The notes beneath the pieces were generated by a model that saw nothing but the letters and a program-made list of their open reading frames with translations, ran no database searches and had not been told where the DNA came from. The translations under genes and the position numbers were made by a program. Positions 22,779 through 31,090 of a stretch of DNA of 64,000 nt are shown in pieces. Origin of the DNA: an uncultured Pelagibacteraceae bacterium. GTDB taxonomy: Bacteria > Pseudomonadota > Alphaproteobacteria > Pelagibacterales > Pelagibacteraceae. The stretch lies in contig CABYDT010000003.1 of NCBI GenBank assembly GCA_902517865.1, forward strand, positions 62,001-126,000, read 5' to 3'. The stretch's first letter is position 1, and the number at the start of each line of letters is the position of its first letter.

Positions 22779-23420
22779 ATGCATAATTACTCAATAGTTA
22801 CTGTGGGATCACCAGTTTTTTTTCAATGCTTAAAAGAGCAAAAAATCGAATATAATTTGCAAAATTTAAGTTCTTTTAAACAAGTAAAGGAAATACTCAA
22901 GTCACCTTTAATTGATATTTATATTTTTTTATTTTTTGTTGATAATATTGAGAGACTAAACGTCAAAGAATTAAAAAAAATTAGGTATCCTAAAATTTTT
23001 TTTTCAAAAAGTAACGAGCAATTAAAGCTATTAAAAAAAAACAATGTAATGAGTAATTTTTTTCAGCTTCCGATTAATTATCCTGATATGGAAAAAATAA
23101 TAAAGTTATCCATTATGAAATATAAATTTCTTTTTCAGTCGCAGATTAAAATTGGAAGTTACATCATTGATAAGAATTCAAAATTGCTAATCAAAAGTTA
23201 TAAAAATATCAAATTGACCGAAAAGGAAATGGAAATTTTACTTTTCTTGTCAGGTAGAGAAGAGGGCTGCTCTAAAAAAGAAATATCCCAAGGTGTAAAT
23301 ATAGATGCGCATACGTATGAGACACATTTGTATAGATTGAGACAAAAAATCCATAAAAAATTCAACGATAAGCATTTAATTTATTTGGAAAATAGTAAAT
23401 ATTACCTAAAGAATGAATAA
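22779..23420 (+). CDS. Winged-helix regulator with a degenerate receiver-like domain
   Basis: A 213-residue protein. The C-terminal part (about 130-213) is an OmpR/PhoB-type winged helix: the LTEKEMEILLFLS helix, KKEISQGVNIDAHTYETHLYRLRQKI as recognition region, and a beta wing (LIYLENSKYYLK). The N-terminal 110 residues look like a CheY-type fold but lack the phospho-acceptor Asp at the expected end of strand 3 (IYIFLFF), so control by phosphorylation is unlikely. It overlaps the photolyase-like gene by 8 bases and could regulate it. Confidence 0.8.
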   Translation: MHNYSIVTVGSPVFFQCLKEQKIEYNLQNLSSFKQVKEILKSPLIDIYIFLFFVDNIERLNVKELKKIRYPKIFFSKSNEQLKLLKKNNVMSNFFQLPINYPDMEKIIKLSIMKYKFLFQSQIKIGSYIIDKNSKLLIKSYKNIKLTEKEMEILLFLSGREEGCSKKEISQGVNIDAHTYETHLYRLRQKIHKKFNDKHLIYLENSKYYLKNE

Positions 23421-24903
23421 ACTTTTTGTAATTCTTGGTAATCAATTATTTGATCCAAAATTTTTAAAAAAATATCAAGATCATACCTTTTTCATGGCCG
23501 AAGATTATGGCTTATGTACATTTCAAAAACATCATAAGCAGAAGATTGTTTTTTTTCTGTCTGCTATGAGATCTTATTTAGATGAATTAAAAAAAAATAA
23601 ACTGAAAGTGATTTATGTAAAAATTGAAGATAAAAATTTTAAAATTCCATACGAAAAAAAATTAATAAAAGAAATTAATAAAAAAAAAATTGACCAGATT
23701 TCTATATTTGAGATTGAGGATAAAGATTTTGAAAAAAAAATCTTATCTACTTTAAAAAAAGCTAATGTAACTGTAAATATTTTAAAAACACCAATGTTTT
23801 TAACATCTAGAGAAGATTTTTCAAAACATCTAAAAAAAGTAAAAAAACCATTTATGGCCACCTTTTACAAAGAGCAGAGAGTAAAACTAGGAATATTGGT
23901 CGATAAAAACGGAAATCCAAAAGGTGGAAAATGGAGTTTTGATGAAGATAATCGAAAAAAATTACCAAAAAATATTAAGTTACCTAAGCAGATTAAATAT
24001 TCACAATCACCCCATACAGAAAAAATTAAAAAAATTATAGATAAAGAATTTAAAACACATCCTGGAGACGTTAAAGATTTTTGGATAGGAACAGATAGAA
24101 AAGACGCTAGATCAGCATTAAGAAATTTTATAAACTTTAAACTTAATTTATTTGGTGATTACGAGGATTCAGTTGATGAGAGAGATAATATACTTTTTCA
24201 CAGTGCATTAAGCCCTTTTATAAATATCGGTCTTTTGACGCCTCAAGAAATATTAGATGAAGTTTCAAAATCAGAGAAAAATAAAAGACTGAATTCTTTA
24301 GAAGGTTATATCCGTCAACTAATTGGTTGGAGAGAATTTATGAGAGGGATATATCAGAATTATGATGATCATTTTCAGAAAACTAATTTTTTTAATCATA
24401 AAAGAAAAATGAAAAAAAGTTGGTACACTGGAGAAACAGGTCTGCCGCCTCTTGACTATGCAATTAATAATGCAAATAAATATGCTTGGTCACATCATAT
24501 TGAACGTTTGATGATTTTATCAAATATTATGAACTTATGCGAAATACACCCAAAAAAAGTTTTTAATTGGTTCATGGAAATGTTTATGGACTCATCAGAT
24601 TGGGTCATGTCTCCGAACATTTATGGTATGGGGCTTTTTAGTGATGGAGGCACTTTCGCTACTAAACCATATATATGTGGATCTGCATATTTTTTAAAAA
24701 TGATGCATTTTAAAAAAGGCGACTGGTGCAATATAATGGATGGATTATATTGGAGGTTCATAGATAGAAATAAAAGATTTTTCCTAAAAAATCCAAGGTT
24801 ATCGATGATGGCTAGAATTTTGGAAAAGATGAAACCAGAGAGAAAAAAATTGATATTTGCAGCCGCTAATAAATTTATTACAGAGAATACAGATGCAAAC
24901 TAA
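23413..24903 (+). CDS. Photolyase/cryptochrome-related protein (PhrB/FeS-BCP clade, cluster ligands missing)
   Basis: A 496-residue flavoprotein of the prokaryotic photolyase-related clade (COG3046), whose studied members repair (6-4) photoproducts or sense light. The N-terminal Rossmann domain (1-150) and the FAD-binding helical domain are complete: EGYIRQLIGWREFMRG (297-312), WSHHIERLMIL (359-369), GMGLFSDGG (405-413) and ATKPY (416-420). The clade normally binds a [4Fe-4S] cluster. Here the first ligand position reads TGLPPLDYA (342-350), the CxxC segment appears deleted (KMMHFKKGDWCN, 429-440), and only Cys439 is left. The start overlaps the regulator gene. Confidence 0.88.
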   Translation: MNKLFVILGNQLFDPKFLKKYQDHTFFMAEDYGLCTFQKHHKQKIVFFLSAMRSYLDELKKNKLKVIYVKIEDKNFKIPYEKKLIKEINKKKIDQISIFEIEDKDFEKKILSTLKKANVTVNILKTPMFLTSREDFSKHLKKVKKPFMATFYKEQRVKLGILVDKNGNPKGGKWSFDEDNRKKLPKNIKLPKQIKYSQSPHTEKIKKIIDKEFKTHPGDVKDFWIGTDRKDARSALRNFINFKLNLFGDYEDSVDERDNILFHSALSPFINIGLLTPQEILDEVSKSEKNKRLNSLEGYIRQLIGWREFMRGIYQNYDDHFQKTNFFNHKRKMKKSWYTGETGLPPLDYAINNANKYAWSHHIERLMILSNIMNLCEIHPKKVFNWFMEMFMDSSDWVMSPNIYGMGLFSDGGTFATKPYICGSAYFLKMMHFKKGDWCNIMDGLYWRFIDRNKRFFLKNPRLSMMARILEKMKPERKKLIFAAANKFITENTDAN

Positions 24904-25243
24904 AGTCTTTTTTAATAATTCATGTAATATTTGCAGGACCGAGATTAATCATTACAAAAAACATGCTGACAAAACAATTGATTGGGTCGATATATCAAAT
25001 AATCAAGATGCAGAGGTCATAACGTCAAAATCAAAAAGAGAATTATTGAGAAGGCTTCATGTAATTCATGAGGGAGAGGTAGTAGGTGGAGCTAAAGCAT
25101 TTATTATTGTTTGGTCCAAAATTCCTAAATATCACTTTCTATCAAAAATATTTAAATTTAAACCTTTATATGTAATGTTCCATTATTTGTATGAGATAAT
25201 TGCATTCTTTCTATATTTAAAAAACAAAAAACAATTAAAATAA
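24893..25243 (+). CDS. DCC-family (DUF393) thiol-disulfide oxidoreductase-like protein
   Basis: A 116-residue protein with the DUF393/COG3011 pattern. The CxxC motif is at the N terminus (FFNNSCNICRTEI, Cys11 and Cys14), followed by IDWVDISNN and a helix-rich middle (RELLRRLHVIHEGEVVGGAKAFIIVWSKIP). A hydrophobic tail includes a possible membrane-facing helix. I start at ATG 24893. An in-frame ATG 36 bases earlier lies deep in the photolyase frame and would place extra residues before the conserved start. It overlaps the photolyase stop by 11 bases. DCC genes often occur near photolyases, which fits an oxidative/light theme. Confidence 0.85.
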   Translation: MQTKVFFNNSCNICRTEINHYKKHADKTIDWVDISNNQDAEVITSKSKRELLRRLHVIHEGEVVGGAKAFIIVWSKIPKYHFLSKIFKFKPLYVMFHYLYEIIAFFLYLKNKKQLK

Positions 25244-25249
25244 ATTTTA

Positions 25250-25789
25250 ATGAGTTTAGATAAGTATAAATGGAAATGTCGTTTATTAGTCGTTTATACT
25301 CCAAATTATAAAAACAAAATCTATTTGAAGACTAAAGAAGTCTATCAAAAGGAAATTAAAGATTTTCATAAAAGATCAATTAAATTTATAACAAAATTTG
25401 ATAGGAATGGTCCCTTTTTAAATTTGATTGGTTTTGATGGCAAATTAAAAAAAAAGTTTTTAAATATTAATCACAAAACAATCTTTAACCTAGTTGACAA
25501 AATGCCAATGGGAGGTGAAGTAAATAAAAAAAAGCTTAAGCCTTTAAATTTGTCTTTATTTTCCGACTACAAGCCATCAACGACTACGCCAGGTTTAGGT
25601 TTTAAAGATAAGGAAAAAGCAATCAGTACAATTAAAACTATTAAAAAACGTCCGATTAAGTATCAAATTAATGTTATTTCTACTATGTTAGGCAGGGCTA
25701 AAAACCATCCTAATAAAACTAAAAATATGAATGAAGCGATAAAAGTTTTTAACAAATGGATGAAAGAATATAAATCAAATAACTTATGA
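25250..25789 (+). CDS. Hybrid protein: DUF4174-like N-terminal domain plus unknown C-terminal module
   Basis: A 179-residue protein. Residues 1-105 resemble DUF4174: YKWKCRLLVVYTPN, then FLNLIGFDGKLKKKF and LVDKMPMGGEV, where the family has an LIGKDG step and a D-MPMR box. Residues 110-179 form a second, helical module (PGLGFKDKEKAISTIKTIKK, then VISTMLGRAKNHPNKTKNMNEA and VFNKWM) that I do not recognise. There is no signal peptide. It starts 6 bases after the DCC gene, and its stop overlaps the next start (ATGA). The function is unknown. Confidence 0.75.
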   Translation: MSLDKYKWKCRLLVVYTPNYKNKIYLKTKEVYQKEIKDFHKRSIKFITKFDRNGPFLNLIGFDGKLKKKFLNINHKTIFNLVDKMPMGGEVNKKKLKPLNLSLFSDYKPSTTTPGLGFKDKEKAISTIKTIKKRPIKYQINVISTMLGRAKNHPNKTKNMNEAIKVFNKWMKEYKSNNL

Positions 25790-26979: not shown

Positions 26980-28383
26980 ATGACAGAAAAAATATTTTTA
27001 ACATTTTCATTATTTGCAGTCTGTTTAGGTTTTATGTCTTATGGATACTATGTATCGAAAGGACATATCTCACAAACTTCATTTCTATTGAGTGATAGGA
27101 ACGTAAATTCTTTAAGTTTAACTTTTAGTTTGACTGCTTCGTGCTTTGGCATTTGGATATTGATTGGGCCCGCAGAAGCTTCAACTTGGGGAGGTCTAGG
27201 AGCAGTAATTGGATATGCATGTGGTCAAAGTTTTGTTTTTTTATATTTTACAAAGGTTGGTGTTAAAATTCGAAGACTATTTCCAAATGCAAGAAGTCTA
27301 ACCGAAGTTATATCAAAACGTTATAGTGTTAAAGTCTGTAAACTGGTTTTAGGACTTACGTTACTTTATCTGTTTGTATATTTTTGCGCAGAGGTTACGG
27401 CTATAGCCAAGGTAACAAATTTAATATTAGGAACACCACTTTGGCTTACAGCTGGATTGATAATTCTCTCAACTTTAATTTACTCACTAAAGGGCGGCTT
27501 AAAAATATCAATTATTACGGATAAATTTCAGTTTTGGATAATTATTATATTTTTAATAATGATATTTTATATTTTCATAAATGAAATTAACTTTTTATCA
27601 TTTGAATTATTAAATAAATTTCCGTCCAAGATGAATATTGAATACAGTGGTTTTACTGCTGGTTTAACTTTCTTTATAGCGGTGTTTGCAACAAATTTAT
27701 TTGACCAAGGAATTTGGCAAAGAGTGTATGCTGCAAAAAATATTGATAACTTAAAAAAAGGTTTCATTGGTAGTTTCTTCATTGTTTTCTGTGTAATCTT
27801 TCTTCTTGGTCTAGTTGGTATTTATGCCTCAATAACAGGTGCTGTTAAAGATCCAAGCACGATAATATTTTCCATCTTAGTAAACAAAGAATATATTTTC
27901 TTAAACCTTTTAATTCTTATACTATCTTTAACTTTGGTGCTGAGTAGTCTCGATACTTTAACTGCAAGTATCTCGAGTTTATTTATTATACACTCACAAA
28001 GTTTTATAAAAATTAAAAATATTAATTATCTTTATATAACATCTGGAGTTATTTTAGCAGGCTCTGCATTTTACTTTTCGTCGAAAGGTTTAAGTATATT
28101 ATATTTGTTCTTATTGGCAGATCTCCTATGCTGCTCCGCTGCGATTCCTATATTTTACGGATTTTATAATAACAAAATTAAGTCAGAGAAGGTTTATTTT
28201 TCAATCTTGTTAGGGGTCATCTCCGGTTTATTATTTTTTCCAAGTTTAGATTTTTCAAAAAGTATTTTAGTTGGAGGATTGTTAAATAAAGAAATATTTC
28301 CCATTTTCATTTCTAATTATTTATTATTTTGGTCTTTTGTTATTGGATCTTTAAGTCCAATAATTTTTCTTCGAAAAAATTAA
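26980..28383 (+). CDS. thiV: Sodium:solute symporter, ThiV-type thiamine-precursor transporter
   Basis: Inner-membrane symporter of the SSS family, 467 residues with about 13 hydrophobic segments. LTASCFGIWILIGPAEAS, NARSLTEVISKRY, YSLKGGLKISIITDKFQF and DQGIWQRVYAAKN are SSS landmarks. It is directly controlled by the TPP riboswitch. In Ca. Pelagibacter an SSS protein with the same control is called ThiV and is proposed to import the thiamine pyrimidine precursor (HMP). The substrate here is inferred from that and not from residues. The 3' end overlaps the convergent glycosyltransferase-like gene by 4 bases. Confidence 0.85.
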   Translation: MTEKIFLTFSLFAVCLGFMSYGYYVSKGHISQTSFLLSDRNVNSLSLTFSLTASCFGIWILIGPAEASTWGGLGAVIGYACGQSFVFLYFTKVGVKIRRLFPNARSLTEVISKRYSVKVCKLVLGLTLLYLFVYFCAEVTAIAKVTNLILGTPLWLTAGLIILSTLIYSLKGGLKISIITDKFQFWIIIIFLIMIFYIFINEINFLSFELLNKFPSKMNIEYSGFTAGLTFFIAVFATNLFDQGIWQRVYAAKNIDNLKKGFIGSFFIVFCVIFLLGLVGIYASITGAVKDPSTIIFSILVNKEYIFLNLLILILSLTLVLSSLDTLTASISSLFIIHSQSFIKIKNINYLYITSGVILAGSAFYFSSKGLSILYLFLLADLLCCSAAIPIFYGFYNNKIKSEKVYFSILLGVISGLLFFPSLDFSKSILVGGLLNKEIFPIFISNYLLFWSFVIGSLSPIIFLRKN

Positions 28384-29339
28384 ATTTTATTAAATCTTGG
28401 ATTCCACATAGATCTTTTTTCTTCTATATGTACAGTTTCAACTTTCTTATTTAAATGCCTTTTACTCATCTCAAATGACAACGTTGAAGGTAATTTATCT
28501 TTATAAATTTTTTTAATAAAATCTTTAACTTGTGGATACGATGGATAAAAAACCTCATTATTTTGAATTTTTAAATATTTTTTAAGTTTAGAGGAAAATA
28601 ATCCCGTTCCATCATCAAAGAATCTTTCATGAGACTCTCCATAATCTTTATACTCAAAATACTTTAAATCATCCTTGGCTTTCTCATTTACCCATGATGT
28701 ATAAGCCCAATATTCACTAAAAGTTTCATAATCATTAAATGATCTAATCAATGATTTAAGCCAGTTTTCATCCGATTTATAGTGCTTTTGTATTTGTTTT
28801 TTAAAACTTTCTAAATGAACTTGATTTAAGATCATATGATGACAAGTAAAAGTAGATTTGGAATTTACTACTGGATCTACGTTTAAAACTTCTTTTATCC
28901 ATATTTCCCATTTCTTAACTATTTCAGGATTACCTCCCGAACGGTCCTGTAATAATGCAAATTTGTTATCAGAAACTGGCCAAGGGTTTACTGGCAACAT
29001 ATCTGCATCCCATATCATAAAGTTATCAGGAAGTTTAATAATATCGTTGGCTCCAATCTTTAAGCACTGCTGGTAGAACCAGCCTTTTGTATATAAATCG
29101 TTTTTTATAATTAGATTTTGTAATAGATTTTCTTTGGTAACATTATATTTTTTTAAAAAAAAATTATCTTCATTGTGACATTCAATCGGTAAATCTAAGT
29201 CTAATTTTTCGATGGTTTCAATCTCTTTTTTGACAGAAATAATATGAATTTTTCTCGGCTTATAATGAAGGTTTAAACTTTCTAAAACTGCTTTGGTTAT
29301 CCAATTAACTTTGAATAACGGGATGACAATTTCTAACAT
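28380..29339 (-). CDS. DUF6492-type glycosyltransferase-like protein
   Basis: A 319-residue cytoplasmic protein. It opens LEIVIPLFKVNWITKAVLESL like a GT-A nucleotide-sugar enzyme. GWFYQQCLKIGAND and the acidic motif MIWDADMLPVNPW (DxD form, about residues 108-120) are characteristic of DUF6492, which I take to be related to glycosyltransferases. SFNDYETFSEYWAYTSW lies where such proteins carry acceptor-side residues. Its start codon overlaps the cyclase stop by one base (TAATG), so the two are made together. Donor and acceptor are unknown. One possibility is sugar transfer to a cyclitol made by the neighbour. Confidence 0.65.
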   Translation of the reverse strand: MLEIVIPLFKVNWITKAVLESLNLHYKPRKIHIISVKKEIETIEKLDLDLPIECHNEDNFFLKKYNVTKENLLQNLIIKNDLYTKGWFYQQCLKIGANDIIKLPDNFMIWDADMLPVNPWPVSDNKFALLQDRSGGNPEIVKKWEIWIKEVLNVDPVVNSKSTFTCHHMILNQVHLESFKKQIQKHYKSDENWLKSLIRSFNDYETFSEYWAYTSWVNEKAKDDLKYFEYKDYGESHERFFDDGTGLFSSKLKKYLKIQNNEVFYPSYPQVKDFIKKIYKDKLPSTLSFEMSKRHLNKKVETVHIEEKRSMWNPRFNKI

Positions 29340-31090
29340 TAATTAAGGTTGGTTTTTTCTATAACTTTCTCTTCGTTATTTCTATAAACTGTTCCTGGGT
29401 CCTCTAATCCAACATCGGAACATAAAGGCTCAATCCCTTTACCTTGTCTGGGATATTTGGCAACGATGGCTTGATATTCTCTTATATATTTGAATAAATT
29501 TTGTTTTGACATTTCATTTAAATATCCGCATTTTCCAATCTCACCTTTGGGTAATGGAGCAGACAAGTTACCACCTCTTTTTTGAACCATCTTAACTTGA
29601 GAACCCCATACACATTCATCATCAAGCAATATATCGTGCCACAAGCTTAGTTCAAATTTACTAATTAATTTAAAAATTCTATGCATTTGGTCAGACGATA
29701 TCCACTTATTTATGTAACTAAAATATGCTCCCAATCCCATTCCAACAGATACAGCATGACCATGTAATAGTCCTGCTTTAATTTCAAATCCGGGTGACCA
29801 AGTATGACCATAAGCATGCGGTCTGCATTGATGTGTTTCATATAAATTATCATATTCTGATGCTACGTAGCTTTTCAATGCGAGCCCTAAAATTTTATCA
29901 GATCCTTTATCTATTTCATCTCCCTTAATACAATTTGAGGTGCCAAATTTTGATGTTAAAAGATCTGTTCCAATTTCTTCAAGCGCCTCAAATAATTCAA
30001 TATCTTTTACAACAGCCATTTTAATAATCTCAGCCACACCGTGCCTTAGCCAACCTGGTTCTAAAGTTTTGAAAAAAGATTTGTCAGTAATGCAAAGAAT
30101 AGGAGTATGATAAGCACCAAAAAGATTTTTATATCCATGCCCATCACAACATGTTCTCGGAGAAGGACCCGCATCAATTCCAGATACAATTGATGTTGCA
30201 AGCATAACATAAGGAGTATTTCTGTGGTACAATGCACATGCAAAGCCTCCAATATCTGCTAACACGCCTCCACCCATAATCAAAACTGGCTCATTTCTAG
30301 AAACACCTAGTTGTTTGAAATCTCCTAAAATTTTTCCAACGTTTTCATAAGATTTGTCAATCTCCATAGCTCTATATACAAGTTTTTCTAATTTAATGTC
30401 ATGGTGAGAAAAATAGTCTGTTATTTTGTCACCAAAATTATCTTCAACATTTTGATCAACTAAACATACACATCTTTTTAAAGACTTATAAATATCTCTT
30501 AGCAAAGGAACATCGGGGTCTAAAGTATTATGCTGAACTTTTAATGTTGTAAATGTTTTAAGACCCATCACAGCTTCAATATGTTGGTAATTTTTTGTGC
30601 TTAGAGTGTATCCGTAGCTTTCACGGTAACTTGATGTTGGATAAAGAGCATGCGGGTTTTTCTTTTCATAAATATCTCTTAGGTCAGCATAATCTGATTT
30701 AGCTTTTGATTTTAATCCTAAATCTAAAACTTTTGTGTCAGCAAGATCAATTTCTTTAACATTTTCAGCAAAATCACTCCAAATAGCACCTTTATCTTCA
30801 TCAAAAGAAAAGATTAAATCTGAAAGATTTTGTAGAAAAAAATACGATTTGTGATTTAGAGCTGATTTTAAAATTTTAATACTTGATAATCCAGTGACAG
30901 CGTCTTCATTTTTAAATTCTTCAGCAATATCTTGCGAGTAAACATCAATCTCGGTTATAGTTTTCAGGAAATCTAAAAAATTCGAGTTTTCAATTACTTT
31001 GTAAAGACCCTTATCTTCTTGATTTGGATCCAATAAAGAATAGTCAAATTCTTTTACGAATTGCTTAATTTCATTAACTATTTTAATCAC
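29339..31090 (-). CDS. Sugar-phosphate cyclase, 2-epi-5-epi-valiolone-synthase-like, with an N-terminal extension
   Basis: A 583-residue member of the dehydroquinate-synthase superfamily. The core runs from about residue 175: LIMGGGVLADIGGFACALYHRNTPY (270-294), IDAGPSPRTCCDG (305-317), KNLFGAYHTP (321-330), HGVAEIIKMAVVKD (350-363, with metal ligand Glu354 and Lys357), RPHAYGHTWSPGFE (423-436, metal His429) and LLHGHAVSVGMG (441-452). True DHQS has GGKTGIN and GHTxGHAxE in place of these. The forms here are those of cyclases that use sedoheptulose 7-phosphate. The first 170 residues and the tail GIEPLCSDVGLEDPGTVYR are extra. The product is inferred to be a C7 cyclitol, and the exact stereochemistry is open. 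Confidence 0.8.
   Translation of the reverse strand: MIKIVNEIKQFVKEFDYSLLDPNQEDKGLYKVIENSNFLDFLKTITEIDVYSQDIAEEFKNEDAVTGLSSIKILKSALNHKSYFFLQNLSDLIFSFDEDKGAIWSDFAENVKEIDLADTKVLDLGLKSKAKSDYADLRDIYEKKNPHALYPTSSYRESYGYTLSTKNYQHIEAVMGLKTFTTLKVQHNTLDPDVPLLRDIYKSLKRCVCLVDQNVEDNFGDKITDYFSHHDIKLEKLVYRAMEIDKSYENVGKILGDFKQLGVSRNEPVLIMGGGVLADIGGFACALYHRNTPYVMLATSIVSGIDAGPSPRTCCDGHGYKNLFGAYHTPILCITDKSFFKTLEPGWLRHGVAEIIKMAVVKDIELFEALEEIGTDLLTSKFGTSNCIKGDEIDKGSDKILGLALKSYVASEYDNLYETHQCRPHAYGHTWSPGFEIKAGLLHGHAVSVGMGLGAYFSYINKWISSDQMHRIFKLISKFELSLWHDILLDDECVWGSQVKMVQKRGGNLSAPLPKGEIGKCGYLNEMSKQNLFKYIREYQAIVAKYPRQGKGIEPLCSDVGLEDPGTVYRNNEEKVIEKTNLN

Follow-up and report, generated by a model that had tools for sequence, protein, structure and literature searches.

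A cyclase allied to the mycosporine-starting enzyme and a predicted glycosyltransferase form a two-gene cassette in SAR11 bacteria

INTRODUCTION

SAR11 bacteria, whose cells rank with the most abundant on Earth, have kept very few secondary-metabolite genes. What would such a cell make with a sugar-phosphate cyclase and a putative glycosyltransferase encoded side by side? The question is raised by a locus in a stretch of 64,000 nucleotides (here called the window; contig CABYDT010000003.1, positions 62,001 to 126,000) from the SAR11-type genome (0.96 Mb) of an uncultured Pelagibacteraceae bacterium. On its minus strand, a gene with a GTG start that encodes an N-terminally extended cyclase of 583 amino acids (29339..31090) is followed by a gene for a DUF6492 protein of 319 amino acids (28380..29339), and the stop codon of the first overlaps the start codon of the second by exactly one base (29339, in TAATG). 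A preliminary description, made from the DNA letters alone, had delimited the same two reading frames with the same overlap, which we confirm, and had proposed a route toward valiolone-type aminocyclitols. Our analysis leads to a different lineage for the cyclase. On balance we favor, with some reservation, a horizontally spread two-gene cassette that converts sedoheptulose 7-phosphate to a cyclitol of the desmethyl-4-deoxygadusol (DDG) type and then to a glycoside. We found no published description of the pair, and its make-up points to a sugar-decorated ring compound, as yet undescribed, from one of the sea’s most abundant cell groups.

RESULTS

The cyclase is sister to the enzymes that start mycosporine synthesis

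The cyclase belongs to the dehydroquinate synthase (DHQS) superfamily, as the preliminary description had recognized: it matches PF01761 (69 bits) and DHQS_C (PF24621; 57 bits) in profile searches, has the fold of the superfamily, and retains metal ligands E354 and H429, noted earlier, together with H443, all three invariant across the family. Yet it scores far under the cut-off of every AroB/DHQS equivalog model (aroB, 136 of 305 bits). Its closest solved relatives are the Anabaena DDG synthase (DDGS, or MysA; PDB 5tpr, E = 2.5e−63) and, after it, the valiolone-type cyclase (EEVS) ValA (PDB 4p53, E = 5.8e−48), both ahead of any DHQS. The catalytic core (residues 197 to 568; 29387..30502, minus strand, as are all features of the pair given below) matches the fold of 5tpr_A with a TMt of 0.90, and ValA fits this fold as well. 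These matches support the assignment of the protein, by sequence, to sugar-phosphate cyclases other than DHQS, from the part of the superfamily that uses sedoheptulose 7-phosphate.

A careful tree of 93 cyclase cores places the protein more precisely. The N-terminally extended cyclases are monophyletic (support 100/99) and adjoin a short cyanobacterial type, and the two together are sister to classical MysA/DDGS (100/99), so that the cyclase is not within the classical MysA clade but sister to it. Sequences of EEVS, EboD, and DHQS fall outside this grouping. The stem branches are long (1.0 to 1.4), EEVS and DHQS draw a long-branch warning in the quick tree, and branching within the extended clade is only partly resolved. 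The evidence therefore points to a mycosporine (DDGS) rather than a valiolone lineage, with the cyclase closely allied to the mycosporine-starting enzyme. The short sister type is a third MysA-like form of about 450 to 470 amino acids, which occurs in cyanobacteria (loci L149, L150, L151, L163, and L164) in complete mysABCD clusters.

The active-site residues agree in part with this placement. At the compared positions, classical MysA reads K-N-E-A-HTWSP-HGH-T and EEVS reads K-N-L-D-H(T/S)F(S/G)P-HGE-H (R in one sequence), while the extended clade reads R-D-E-A-HTWSP-HGH-K; the only deviation in the compared members is HGLSA, in one group of SAR11 sequences (clade B, below). In our cyclase, E412, A426, HTWSP, and HGH are of DDGS type; two of the three sites that distinguish DDGS from EEVS are thus DDGS-like, and the third is K504, a new residue where DDGS has T and EEVS has H. 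Measured against what we take to be the DDGS fingerprint, E254/A268/T347 plus the active-site Lys (Ava numbering, with positions taken from the alignment), E and A are matched, T is replaced by K504, and Lys is replaced by R312, although this Lys is constant in every cyclase compared outside the extended clade and the short sister type. Neither the EEVS fingerprint (L267, D281, and H360 in ValA) nor the EEVS motif HGE is present.

The preliminary description had ascribed two strings of the protein to sedoheptulose 7-phosphate cyclases. This holds for GHTWSPGFE (residues 428 to 436; 29783..29809), which contains ligand H429 and is of the classical DDGS string type. It does not hold for the active-site loop IDAGPSPRTCCDGHGYKN (residues 305 to 322; 30125..30178), which carries R312 in place of the usual Lys: its string GPSPRTCCDG is peculiar to the extended subfamily and is unlike its known counterparts in EEVS (IDAGIGAKTGVN) and DDGS (IDASVAIKVAVN). 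The substitutions R312, K504, and GPSPRxCCD are invariant in about 80 members of the extended clade.

Because residue ~41 of classical MysA aligns with residue ~197 of the cyclase, the latter has about 150 extra N-terminal residues. The extension, also remarked on earlier, is real and occurs in nearly all complete relatives; a search of the PDB by sequence with the N-terminal domain returned nothing significant. Residues 1 to 145 (30656..31090) are predicted to be helical and vary strongly among relatives, whereas the linker that follows (residues 146 to 196; 30503..30655; NPHAxYPTSSYRES...) is nearly invariant and includes an invariant P-T-S-x-Y-R. As a guess, the N-terminal domain could be an oligomerization or partner-binding module.

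The DUF6492 protein is a predicted sugar transferase

The second protein matches PF20102 with 38 bits (gathering cut-off, 22.9), and no paper was found in a literature search on DUF6492. Its AlphaFold model (pLDDT 90) has as its nearest solved structures retaining GT-A glycosyltransferases (XXYLT1 and LgtC) and stealth-type sugar-phosphate transferases (GNPTAB and CpsY), with E values of 1e−7 to 1e−6. These proteins share the fold and the DxD motif with the DUF6492 model, but they have no detectable sequence homology to it and the match is remote (TMq at most 0.47); a search of the PDB by sequence likewise gave no match. The DAD motif that the preliminary description had picked out corresponds to D111 and D113 (29001..29009, within WD[AS]D), which are invariant in 24 DUF6492 sequences. 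Given the GT-A-like model and the invariant DxD, the protein is likely a nucleotide-sugar-dependent transferase, with either glycosyl or glycosyl-phosphate transfer as its predicted activity.

The two genes co-occur and are under purifying selection in SAR11

Among 297 genomes of the SAR11 family, only 10 carry the cyclase (51 to 99% identity), and the other listed cyclase matches in the family, at 22 to 31% identity, are AroB-type proteins. The DUF6492 profile has matches in precisely these 10 genomes and in no others (hypergeometric P = 8e−19). All three sampled members of the window’s own genus have the pair. A search for the same two-gene block in other SAR11 genomes, which had been proposed earlier, finds DUF6492 directly downstream of the cyclase in 9 of the 9 other carriers. 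The flanks of the pair vary: they are common to genomes G007 and G021 but differ in G053, in G112, and in the group of G134 and G218. At 0.309, the G+C content of the two genes is nothing unusual in the window (0.295 ± 0.026), and a foreign base composition was rejected.

Both genes divide into the same two SAR11 clades, A (GHTWSPGFE in the cyclase, including our sequence) and B (GHGLSANFE). The clade B change from HTWSP to HGLSA sits on a long branch (L083 and others) and hints at a further change of reaction. The dN/dS ratio is about 0.01 to 0.1 for the cyclase and about 0.09 to 0.13 for DUF6492, with far higher synonymous divergence, and both genes are under purifying selection. Transketolase, a source of sedoheptulose 7-phosphate, is present.

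A MysC model has no match in any of the 10 SAR11 carriers, nor does a MysB orthologue (E below 1e−100) occur in them, where a generic methyltransferase is the most that is found; the combination of mysB and mysC that marks a mycosporine-like amino acid (MAA) pathway is thus missing from these genomes. A literature search for SAR11 and mycosporine, in titles and abstracts, returned nothing relevant.

DUF6492 takes the place of mysB and mysC in relatives of the cyclase

Scanning 84,980 species genomes once with the family alignment yielded 78 loci (49 to 99% identity), a count that is too low because the scan relies on two short peptide patterns. Nearly all have the N-terminal extension, and their hosts are, in addition to SAR11, marine and other cyanobacteria, Bacteroidota, Halieaceae, Halomonas, Planctomycetes, Puniceicoccaceae, and others. 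In 61 of the 78 loci (SAR11, cyanobacteria, and a few others), DUF6492 lies directly downstream on the same strand, and the genomes of these loci are mostly without MysB and MysC. The remaining 17 have no DUF6492. One of them is a short contig; in the other 16 the cyclase adjoins an O-methyltransferase and/or an ATP-grasp ligase (the ligase in 16 of 16), mostly together with a D-Ala-D-Ala-ligase-like (MysD) gene and a HAD phosphatase. The ligase passes or nears the MysC-type model NF005315, and a representative methyltransferase and ligase share 49% and 52% identity, respectively, with their counterparts in the Nostoc HK-01 mysABC cluster. A 377-amino-acid protein downstream in L069 matched the MysD set but resembles an ordinary D-Ala-D-Ala ligase by its sequence, and it was not counted.

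Cyanobacteria occur in either state, with further examples of DUF6492 (L165, L166, and L168) and of mysBC (L167 and L169). Most cyanobacterial carriers of the DUF6492 pair have no match to the MysC model, and MysB shows the same split; the exceptions are G297 and G300, with strong MysC matches on contigs other than that of the pair, and G315, with a fragment. In the extended clade the basal branches are of mys type, and at least three changes of partner are needed on the tree; DUF6492 is thus probably the derived partner, with switches since then. No core position tells the cyclases of the two types apart, and one shared first reaction is therefore the simplest reading. A Flammeovirgaceae metagenome-assembled genome contains both partner types (L060:3790-11849), with cyclase and DUF6492 adjoining mysB, mysC, mysD-like, HAD, and TauD-like genes, and could be a transitional form between the two kinds of pathway.

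Patchy occurrence and shifting genomic surroundings suggest that the cassette is mobile and has spread horizontally, a conclusion drawn from these patterns and not from a reconciled species tree. A viral origin of the cyclase was considered and rejected: IMG/VR contained no relative of the query or of the family alignment, and phage and plasmid records contained only cyclases of the AroB, EEVS, EboD, and classical MysA types.

DISCUSSION

We infer the following route. The extended cyclase, of the Zn2+/NAD+ type, would close sedoheptulose 7-phosphate supplied by transketolase to a DDG-type C7 cyclitol, DDG being the first intermediate of mycosporine synthesis. The DUF6492 transferase, of predicted GT-A fold, would then add a sugar (or sugar phosphate) from a nucleotide-sugar donor, occupying the place that MysB (O-methylation) and MysC (glycine ligation) hold in the same cyclase clade. 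Such a route would end in a cyclitol glycoside without methyl group or amino acid, which would probably serve as a UV screen, an antioxidant, or a compatible solute. We give about even chances to the broader proposal that this is an undescribed mycosporine-type branch, a two-enzyme cyclitol-glycoside pathway common to SAR11 and marine cyanobacteria, in which the methyltransferase and ATP-grasp ligase were swapped for a new glycosyltransferase family.

The nearest known system is DDGS/MysA (Ava_3858 of Anabaena variabilis, PDB 5tpr), which shares with our cyclase the fold, the metal ligands, E/A, HTWSP, HGH, and a sister position, and whose partners mysB, mysC, and mysD also accompany relatives of our cyclase. 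It uses sedoheptulose 7-phosphate (PMC4426668). Our cyclase differs in its N-terminal helical domain, in R312 and K504 for K and T, in the GPSPRxCCD loop, and in an identity of 30 to 37%, and in SAR11 it is paired with DUF6492, whereas classical DDGS is paired with mysBC. For what MysB and MysC do we follow PMC11378024, which itself names MysA an EEVS. EboD of the ebo operon (PMC5133447) is likewise an uncharacterized non-DHQS sugar-phosphate cyclase, but it is distant in the tree and has TatD-like, EboE, and UbiA neighbors; a figure in the same paper shows an uncharacterized “DDGS?” clade that may overlap the extended clade. MysG (GT4) and MysJ (PMC11378024) are also glycosyltransferases linked to MAA-type gene clusters. 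By description, however, they belong to other families and, in mysABCD clusters, modify completed MAAs, whereas DUF6492 takes the place of mysBC.

Several observations weigh against the proposed route. Two positions constant in the compared DDGS are changed (K to R312 and T to K504) and the 310-316 loop is rewritten, so the product could differ from DDG; in SAR11 clade B, moreover, HGLSA replaces HTWSP right beside a metal ligand. The alternative that we take most seriously, though we think it rather unlikely, is that the extended clade makes a new C7 cyclitol distinct from both DDG and valiolone, on which the relatives’ MysB and MysC would act as on an analogue and which DUF6492 would glycosylate. 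The invariance of the substitutions, the long stem branches, and the further alteration in clade B speak for it, whereas the MysB and MysC neighbors, being about 50% identical to classical enzymes for DDG and 4-deoxygadusol, favor the same core. A valiolone- or gadusol-type glycoside from an EEVS-type cyclase, close to the preliminary proposal, appears improbable: the substrate family is shared and ValA is the second-best solved relative, but EEVS sequences stand apart in the tree, E412/A426/K504 and HGH replace L267/D281/H360 and HGE, and relatives of the cyclase adjoin mysBC, not kinase and aminotransferase genes of cyclitol pathways.

The second step has its own difficulties. The remote fold matches of DUF6492 include sugar-1-phosphate transferases and allow neither donor nor acceptor to be named, the acceptance of a cyclitol is inferred from gene linkage, and several carrier genomes are 68 to 86% complete, so the absences of MysB and MysC are not absolute. 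DUF6492 might instead act on another acceptor, such as a surface glycan, a lipid, or a compatible solute like glucosylglycerate, its linkage to the cyclase reflecting shared regulation. Polysaccharide phosphotransferases are among its fold relatives, and most SAR11 clade B pairs (L081 to L116) lie near either a sugar ABC transporter or glucosylglycerate-type genes, namely a GpgS-like synthase, an MPGP-like phosphatase, and a GH13 phosphorylase-like gene (for example, L096:6755-7975, L098:2958-3764, and L110:5033-6757). The latter would fit a solute role, but no such neighbors were seen next to the pairs of SAR11 clade A and of cyanobacteria, and the two genes stay adjacent in changing contexts and co-occur perfectly in SAR11; we hold this explanation, too, to be improbable. 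That the cyclase is an ordinary paralogue of DHQS that serves the shikimate pathway, to which its Pfam DHQ_synthase membership might point, can practically be dismissed, because the same genome has a separate gene for AroB, the GHTxGHAxE and HGE motifs are lost, and the tree, a check suggested in the preliminary description, leaves the protein outside the DHQS clade.

If the proposed route is correct, a mobile two-gene cyclitol-glycoside pathway under selection would offer a new candidate for a sunscreen, antioxidant, or osmolyte of the surface ocean, DUF6492 would gain a function, and a sunscreen pathway would prove reroutable by a change of the second enzyme alone. Two purified proteins suffice for a direct test of the cassette.

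Two features lie near the pair in the window. A row of genes at 23413-25789 (plus strand), 2.5 kb from the pair, encodes photolyase-related (DPRP/FAD_binding_7), DCC1-like, and DUF4174 proteins and has a flavor of UV repair. The photolyase-related gene is 4 kb off; as none was seen close to the pair in G053, in clade B genomes, or in the other contexts, we made no use of this linkage. A sodium:solute symporter gene (26980-28383, plus strand) is convergent with the DUF6492 gene, their ends overlapping by 4 bases, an arrangement that is conserved only within the genus, in its three genomes.

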